Below are positions 10,068 through 11,878 of a stretch of 36,825 nucleotides of DNA, piece by piece. The notes below the pieces were generated by a model. That model saw only the letters and a program-made list of their open reading frames with translations. It was not told where the DNA came from and did not search any database. The stretch spans positions 1-36,825 of the forward strand of contig WGNA01000004.1 in NCBI GenBank assembly GCA_016124755.1, read 5' to 3'. Source of the stretch: Bacteroidota bacterium. GTDB taxonomy: Bacteria > Bacteroidota > Bacteroidia > NS11-12g > UBA9320. How positions within the stretch are numbered: the stretch's first letter is position 1; each line of letters starts with the position of its first letter. A program made the translations under genes and the position numbers.

Positions 10068-10512
10068 TGTCCGTAGCGAGGACGCTACGGACAGATACCG
10101 GTATTCCGGCTGCGACTGCGTTTTCGATTTTTCGTTTTTCGCTTTTAACCGCAAAGTCACGCAAAGTTTGTCGCAGAGGAACGCAGTATTTTCATCCACG
10201 GAATATTCAACGAAGAGGGATTATTTTTAAAATCCATTTGTCCGTAGCGAGGACGCTACGGACAGTTTCCACATTTAGGTTTTCGCCAGCGTTTTCGATT
10301 TTCATCCGCCGAAAGGCGGATTCGTTTTTCGCTTTCAACCGCAAAGTCACGCAAAGTTTGTCGCAGAGGAACGCAGTTTTTGTCATCCACGGAATATTCG
10401 GTATAGACGGATTGTTTTTCAAATTAATTTATCCGTAGCGAGGGCGCTACGGACAGATCCCACATTAAAGCTTCGACAGCGTTTTGGATTTTCAATTCAT
10501 CGCTTTTCGCTT
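10068..10512. repeat. Composite intergenic repeat, left array (units A, B, truncated C)
   Basis: Each unit is ordered: a perfect or near-perfect hairpin GTCCGTAGCG-AGGA-CGCTACGGAC, a 60-80 base spacer ending in GTTTTCGATTTTC and CGTTTTTCGCTTT, a 41-base core (AACCGCAAAGTCACGCAAAG then TTTGTCGCAGAGGAACGCAGT), then a GGAATATTC tail. Unit A hairpin is at 10068-10093 with core 10147-10187. Unit B hairpin is at 10239-10264 with core 10337-10377. Unit C has the hairpin at 10432-10453 but no core. Unit B also has the ATCCGCC-GAAA-GGCGGAT hairpin. Non-coding; the remaining sequence to 10712 shows no gene I can support. Confidence 0.85.
10304..10321. repeat. Inner hairpin with GAAA loop (unit B)
   Basis: ATCCGCC-GAAA-GGCGGAT, seven perfect pairs. 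The same hairpin recurs at 11802-11819 and, with the loop reading TTTC, at 11596-11613. Unit A lacks it. Confidence 0.8.
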
Positions 10513-10712
10513 TTTGTATTATAGTTTTGAAAAGCCACTACCTCAGAACTTCACTTCATTACGTGACGTATCCGGAAAATAGCAGGCTTGTCTCAATTGG
10601 CAATATCCGAAGCAAATGGCATTATTGCTTTGGTGGGATCATTCAGTATGTATCTTTTGATGTGCCTCCGGTTTTGCTGAAATTTATAATTAATCATCAT
10701 ACATTAAAATTT

Positions 10713-11384
10713 ATGAAAACCAGAAAAATCATTATTTCATTAATTTCCATTTTCTTTTTAAATCAGGCTTTAGCCCAATATGAAGTTGATGAATTACCGC
10801 CTATAAGTATTCATCGAATTAGTTTTGATCTCGCTCTGAATGGGGGCAAATTTTTTCTGGATGGAAATCCAAATGGAAATGAGTTGCTTTTGGGAAGTAC
10901 ATCGAGAACAACAAACAGCACAAAATCAAATTCAATTGGTGTTGGTTTTTCACTCAACTACCACCTGATGCCGTACCTCGATTTTAAATGGGACTGGAAT
11001 TATGAATACTGCGACGAACCGTTGGTTGAGACGTACGCGCTGGTATCGAAGAACTATGGTTTAAAATATCAACTATACGATTGGAAAAACTTGCTTCCTT
11101 TCGTAAAACTGAGTTACACTACTTATACGGTTGGCGAGATTCAGGTATATGATGCATCAATCACAAAACACTCCGTTACAAACCTTCGGGAATATTTATT
11201 TACCGGTAAAGGAATAACACCGGGTTTCGGATTCGATCTTAATATCGGCGAGAGACTTACGTATGCTCTTGGATACGATCGTTTAATAACCACCGGCAAA
11301 CTTCAAAAAACACAAGGCGGAGTTGAGTTTGTAAACAAGCCAAAACACGGTCGTTTCTATTTTGCGTTTCGGGTGCGCGTTTAA
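10713..11384 (+). CDS. Small outer-membrane beta-barrel protein, function unknown
   Basis: 223 residues. Signal peptide at about 1-21 (MKTRKIIISLISIFFLNQALA, cleaved before QYEV). The rest has alternating aromatic and polar strands and ends in FYFAFRVRV, consistent with a small outer-membrane barrel. I do not recognise a specific family. The frame is open from 10527, but the signal peptide fixes the start at ATG 10713. The coding sequence looks more AT-rich by eye than neighbouring genes. It stands alone between two arrays of the composite repeat, with truncated units on both sides. Confidence 0.7.
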   Translation: MKTRKIIISLISIFFLNQALAQYEVDELPPISIHRISFDLALNGGKFFLDGNPNGNELLLGSTSRTTNSTKSNSIGVGFSLNYHLMPYLDFKWDWNYEYCDEPLVETYALVSKNYGLKYQLYDWKNLLPFVKLSYTTYTVGEIQVYDASITKHSVTNLREYLFTGKGITPGFGFDLNIGERLTYALGYDRLITTGKLQKTQGGVEFVNKPKHGRFYFAFRVRV

Positions 11385-11419
11385 AAGAATCCCGTTTTAT
11401 TAATGGTCTAACGTTTTCA

Positions 11420-11878
11420 CTCTTCTTGGTTTTTTTTCAACCGCAAAGTCACGCAAAGATTATCGCAGAGGAACGCAGTTTTTGTCATCCGCAGAATATT
11501 CAGTGAAGAGGAATTATTTTTTGGAATAAATTGTCCGTAGCGAGGGCGCTACGGACAGTTACCACATTAAAGCATCGACAGCGTTTTCGATTTTCATCCG
11601 CCTTTCGGCGGATTCGTTTTTCGCTTTCAACCGCAAAGTCACGCAAAGTTCGTCGCAGAGGAACGCAGTTTTTGTCACCCATGGAATATACGGTGAAGCG
11701 GGATTATTTTTAGGAATAATTTGTCCGTAACGAGGACGCTGCGGACAGATACCGGTATTAAAGATTTCGGTTTTCAGGTTTCGACAGCGTTTTCGATTTT
11801 CATCCGCCGAAAGGCGGATTCATTTTTCGCTTTTGACCGCAAAGACACGCAAAGTTTGTCGCAGAGGAACGCAGTTAA
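11420..11878. repeat. Composite intergenic repeat, right array (partial D, units E, F)
   Basis: Unit D lacks the outer hairpin and keeps the core at 11439-11479. Unit E has outer hairpin 11532-11557, inner hairpin 11596-11613 and core 11629-11669. Unit F has an imperfect outer hairpin at 11722-11747 (one wobble, one mismatch), inner hairpin 11802-11819 and core 11836-11876. The array lies between convergent genes. From 11880 to 12023 only a weak GATCTA/TAGATC inverted repeat (11892-11910) was seen. Confidence 0.85.

Follow-up and report, generated by a model that had tools for sequence, protein, structure and literature searches.

A probable REP-like hairpin family with a one-sided AG tag in BIME-like intergenic mosaics of a Bacteroidota genome

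Results

Two repeat arrays flank a single gene

The DNA analysed here, called the window throughout, is a stretch of 36,825 nucleotides from a Bacteroidota bacterium. Between positions 10068 and 11878 it contains five outer hairpins (HP), five cores, three inner hairpins and four tails, which sit in two arrays, one on each side of a single gene. The parts, most of them with the method by which they were located, are as follows.

10069..10094, + strand: HP1, outer hairpin with AG tag (pattern, folding)
10147..10186, + strand: core 1 (pattern)
10197..10209, + strand: tail 1, CACGGAATATTCA (pattern)
10240..10265, + strand: HP2, outer hairpin with AG tag (pattern, folding)
10304..10321, unstranded: inner hairpin of unit 2, GAAA loop
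10337..10376, + strand: core 2 (pattern)
10388..10400, + strand: tail 2 (pattern)
10431..10456, + strand: HP3, outer hairpin
10713..11384, + strand: gene between the arrays, 223 aa
11439..11478, + strand: core 3; the right array starts at about 11423
11490..11502, + strand: tail 3 (pattern)
11533..11558, + strand: HP4, outer hairpin with AG tag (pattern, folding)
11596..11613, unstranded: inner hairpin of unit 4, loop inverted to TTTC (pattern, folding)
11629..11668, + strand: core 4 (pattern)
11680..11692, + strand: tail 4, degenerate, GGAATATAC (read from the sequence)
11723..11748, + strand: HP5, outer hairpin with imperfect stem (pattern, folding)
11802..11819, unstranded: inner hairpin of unit 5, GAAA loop (pattern)
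11835..11874, + strand: core 5, end of the array (pattern)

The original prediction, made from the letters of the window, had described a repeat in two arrays around one gene, with a period of about 190–207 bases and an optional inner hairpin. All three statements hold: the parts can be placed across the whole interval, the core-to-core distances inside the arrays are 190, 190 and 206 bp, and a hairpin with a GAAA or TTTC loop is carried by three of the five units. The inner hairpin is cleanly missing from unit 1 and has its loop inverted in unit 4, suggesting that it changes on its own. A GGAATATTC-type tail follows four of the five cores, and the fifth unit stops at its own core. On the left side, the spacer after HP3 ends at about 10514–10521, immediately ahead of the position where a core would be expected. 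The order of the parts, predicted to be constant, is so inside the window array, because a single local unit is repeated there in tandem; at other places in the genome the parts are usually found separately. A separate 211-bp tandem array at the start of the window (positions 1–514, 2.4 copies, GTTACC-type hexamers) is distinct from the repeat studied here.

The gene enclosed by the arrays had been described as a small barrel protein. This could not be confirmed, as its product matches no Pfam family at E ≤ 0.001; none of 43 relatives contains a match to the gene. No empty site was seen in the nearest relative, whose locus is not syntenic and where a single protein matches.

The outer hairpin is a discrete element with a covarying stem

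The outer hairpin, GTCSGTAGCG-RGGR-CGCTACSGAC-AG, spans 26 bp and forms a discrete element. Folded as single-stranded DNA, the copies in the window reach −7.3 to −14 kcal/mol (z of −3.5 to −8.4 versus shuffles), and four of the five stems contain no mismatch, HP5 (11724) having one internal mismatch. To describe conservation we took one representative from each of the 29 clusters into which 66 copies in the examined loci fall. The information content is 1.3–2.0 bits at most positions of the element and less than 0.6 bits on either flank, so that the conserved block has sharp borders, running from the G that precedes the stem to the AG that follows it. The unpaired AG is present in all 29 representatives and the mirror positions are unconserved, which makes it a one-sided tag. 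Both the AG and the flanks lie outside the search pattern, and conservation there is therefore unaffected by ascertainment; that of the other stem positions is partly ascertained, as these are part of the pattern, with up to two mismatches allowed. Since all 29 clusters come from one genome, they are not fully independent events.

The third pair of the stem (TCS...SGA) is C-G in 14 representatives, G-C in 11 and unpaired in 4; among all 66 copies, the two paired states number 32 and 30. The search pattern charged two mismatches for a swap of both bases and so favoured single over double changes, a bias that works against the observed swap. The covariation score of the hairpin is 0.101, compared to 0.056 in shuffles, and none of 500 shuffles reached it. 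Pairing holds in 90.5% of cells over 19 distinct sequences, with two-sided changes in only two pairs. The near-perfect pairing noted in the window is thus retained across copies whose flanks are unrelated, and it does not decay as the flanks do: the stem is conserved and covaries where the surrounding sequence is not conserved.

Hairpin and core are dispersed between genes

The genome that contains the window comprises 4.05 Mb in 39 contigs. Searched with one unit from the window, it returns 71 matches at E ≤ 0.001, most of which are an outer hairpin alone or a core alone. The hairpin pattern, with up to two mismatches, matches 61 times in the genome (0 for the reversed control) and has no match in 19 relatives; a looser pattern gives the 66 copies described above. 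A 19-mer of the core matches 48 times, 23 on one strand and 25 on the other, and 44 cores lie in the examined loci. Further copies of both parts, whose absence would have counted against the original prediction, are found across the genome, about 61–66 hairpins and 44–48 cores.

Their placement is extragenic. By a rough ORF call, none of the 66 hairpins and two of the 44 cores lie inside ORFs of at least 130 aa. In the 35 host intergenic regions the median length is 718 bp, compared to 235 bp for 158 gaps in an unbiased sample, a difference due in part to the length of the arrays themselves. By the measure of local direct repeats the genome is not unusually repeat-rich: these make up 2.3% of a 400-kb sample here and 1.9% in two relatives, for which 250 kb were sampled.

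Outside this genome, the hairpin is best represented in a Lentimicrobiaceae MAG, the clearest such case, which carries 11 copies with at most one mismatch; at all seven sites read there, CAG directly follows the hairpin. In all, the exact hairpin pattern occurs in 16 stretches of a genome-contig collection that may omit the window's own genome; several of the stretches look like chance single matches, and the AG is not always kept. The exact long core pattern has no match in that collection, and viral contigs contain no copy of the hairpin. Among 107 further genomes of the order, two show a single weak match each to the core 19-mer.

The core is a dispersed, non-palindromic motif of about 40 bp. 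It does not fold (z of 0.84), yet it is the best conserved part outside the hairpins. A broad form of its pattern, AACCRCRRAKNNACRCRRAK, matches 22 times in its own genome; of 197 further genomes in the phylum, 12 contain it, with 24 sites between them, compared to one site for the reversed pattern. A stricter form is present in 12 of 295 genomes besides its own. Judged by these pattern matches, the core is part of a looser and wider family across the phylum. No name for the broad motif was found in the literature searched by its letters, and the motif could be studied in many genomes. Four close inverted pairs of cores were seen, three with their starts facing outward, and some cores may therefore be arms of larger palindromes. 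At one locus, two inverted cores 19 bp apart form a palindrome of about 97 bp (L049 10896-10992; G000:C21:53895-53991).

Hairpin copies lack target duplications and a flanked transposase gene

The original prediction offered non-autonomous mobile elements as one reading of the units and named flanking target duplications as a check. None were seen around the 29 hairpin representatives, whose mean flank repeat is 1.41, compared to 1.63 ± 0.21 in shuffled controls. The genome encodes three Y1_Tnp genes, none of which is flanked by the outer hairpin; near two of them, hairpins of other sequence can be read from the DNA. One Y1 transposase gene has adjoining inverted repeats of the CCGTCGTC type (L072 2072-2270; G000:C29:167 kb). 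In two other genomes, the outer hairpin lies 0.5–0.9 kb from a Y1 gene. We considered a link between the two and rejected it: these Y1 genes have their own, different hairpins beside them and are not counted as support. Mobility of the units is thus unsupported by either target duplications or a hairpin-flanked transposase gene in the genome.

According to a published account, TnpA-REP is guided by GTAG and cleaves at a CT dinucleotide adjacent to the hairpin (PMC8266576). The invariant AG of the outer hairpin reads CT on the other strand. As a lead, this fits the cut site of TnpA-REP and not its guide.

Discussion

Alternative readings of the arrays

The units were predicted to act as one composite element, and one could suppose that core, tail and outer hairpin, with or without the inner hairpin, form a non-autonomous element that moves as a whole, the arrays having arisen by its repeated insertion or tandem copying. 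Ten cores, spread over four loci (C12, C4 and two on C29), have an outer hairpin 46–56 bp downstream, in the same orientation in all ten cases; in one more neighbouring pair the distance is 133 bp. At C4:16333-16500 the core, the outer hairpin, the inner hairpin and the surrounding bases are all shared with the window. The arrangement of core, tail and hairpin with fixed spacing and orientation does recur, then, at three to four loci, and to that extent the prediction stands. However, only 10 of the 44 cores and 10 of the 66 hairpins in the examined loci take part in it; the other 34 cores and 56 hairpins lie outside. The sequence between core and hairpin is related at C4 and at one C29 locus, but different at the other C29 locus (38–40 kb), and neither common outer ends nor target duplications, the latter tested on the hairpin representatives, were seen. 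We regard a composite element that moves whole as unlikely. Because hairpin and core are scattered separately between genes, we favour a new relative of REP and BIME over one dedicated mobile element.

Two further explanations concern function. The arrays could be recombination substrates that hold and exchange accessory genes like cassettes, with the direct repeats permitting gene insertion and loss. Measured against a unit of about 190 bp, the left array stops just short of a core and the right array starts within about 20 bp of the same point of the unit. This phase agreement would suit such a pocket, although at a single locus it could be chance. The enclosed gene is also missing from the 43 relatives. 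Repeats of at least 50 bp bracket exactly one ORF in seven of 37 examined regions, the window included; these regions were chosen for hairpin, core or Y1 genes, or for adjoining the window. At the other loci, however, the overlap between the bracketing repeats varies from about 55 to 270 bp, which does not correspond to a clean empty site, and at one of the seven (L051) the repeats contain neither hairpin nor core by the patterns used. In an unbiased sample of the same genome, other repeats enclose a lone ORF in at least two cases, and the same is seen in relatives; bracketing is therefore not special to the hairpin and core. Neither a recombinase nor an empty allele was found, and we think exchange of this kind improbable, slightly more so than a composite element. 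Alternatively, selection could have maintained the units for a function as transcribed structured RNAs or as transcription terminators. The hairpins are perfect and GC-rich, terminator-like sites number eight where 2.3 are expected (a count that includes the hairpins themselves), and convergent gaps are commoner among the host intergenic regions (11 of 35) than in the unbiased sample (18 of 158). On the other hand, the window contains no Rfam match at gathering scores, the core is conserved without a fold, and termination does not require many consecutive copies. The hairpin is possibly transcribed, but selection of the units as RNAs or terminators is very unlikely, and the structured-RNA reading of the original prediction finds no backing in the Rfam search or in the folding of the core. 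At a further locus, a 527-aa ORF has on both sides repeats some 200 bp long that contain CCCCGAAGGGG palindromes (L100 3193-5602; G000:C1:303-306 kb).

A probable REP-like family amplified in place

Based on these observations, we consider it probable that the outer hairpin represents a REP-like, newly tagged family that, together with a second dispersed motif, the core, forms BIME-like intergenic mosaics amplified in place. No insertion event was caught for the hairpin, and its history can be sketched as follows. Copies of the hairpin may once have spread by the action of an HUH/Y1-type single-strand transposase, which would have recognised the folded hairpin and cut at the tag. In the window, tandem copying of one local unit of hairpin, spacer, inner hairpin, core and tail probably produced about five units, the arrays presumably growing by slippage or unequal recombination; these tandem units now stand on both sides of an accessory gene. 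The arrays probably have no dedicated function beyond local effects of the hairpins, for example on transcript ends or as recombination substrates. A broader proposal, which we offer as speculation and would not expect to hold, although we rate it a little above the composite element, is that AG/CT marks a third class of REP-like tag, common to distant bacteria and set in mosaics with a widespread non-palindromic partner, and that its tandem arrays serve as recombination pockets in which single accessory genes are gained and lost.

Comparison with known systems

DDE-type MITEs are accompanied by target-site duplications, of which the 29 hairpin representatives show none. Integron cassette arrays, whose attC sites have paired core sites and recombine through IntI, resemble the window in that repeats bracket single genes, but the attC-like repeats found elsewhere in the genome differ in sequence from the array units. 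Among these, three of about 100 nt, spaced 1.2–1.9 kb apart with genes between them, lie at L111 1982-5220 (G000:C21). In another genome, single genes are separated by a set of eight related repeats, each some 150 nt long and ending in TAAC/GTTA-type borders (L125 8100-13240; G009:C9), which presumably resemble attC cassettes. An integron origin was considered and rejected, as the integrase_gron model has no match above its cut-off in 39 genomes. A tyrosine recombinase at G000:C18:140754-141563 gives two partial matches to the model, of 110 and 89 bits (cut-off 265), and by this similarity is possibly a divergent integron integrase.

As in REPIN/RAYT systems, spread of the hairpin by a single-strand transposase, as a non-autonomous element, is possible. 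There is, however, no RAYT partner, and the array has no defined unit made of two inverted REPs. In RAYT-mobilised REPs (REPtrons) the elements flank the transposase gene, which is the case for none of the three Y1_Tnp genes here; likewise, unlike GTAG- and CGTC-tagged REPs, the hairpin has no flanked RAYT gene that we could find. The tags differ as well. In the GTAG superfamily an unpaired GTAG stands immediately 5' of the palindrome; in the outer hairpin GTAG is paired within the stem and the flanking tag is AG/CT. Its unpaired tag is not the CGTC of the other superfamily either. In our reading the hairpin behaves like REP and BIME and lies outside both superfamilies. A REP-like family with a tag other than GTAG or CGTC, and without a visible transposase, would be an addition to those known and so bears on how such hairpins spread.

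Published REPs are described as short palindromes that carry a brief conserved tag, occur in clusters and are tandemly reiterated along with flanking DNA (PMC3733652), and as usually present in more than 100 copies per genome (PMC2817692). The outer hairpin is likewise a short, dispersed, extragenic palindrome with a conserved unpaired tag at a single end, although its copy number is below the usual, not strict, figure. Classical BIMEs alternate the orientation of their palindromes, whereas the five hairpins of the window all point the same way; genome-wide, orientation is mixed in five of 16 multi-copy clusters. The second motif of the array, the core, also differs from a BIME component in being non-palindromic. 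In its overall composition, the window is like a BIME: hairpins combined with other short motifs, joined by variable linkers, in consecutive tandem copies.
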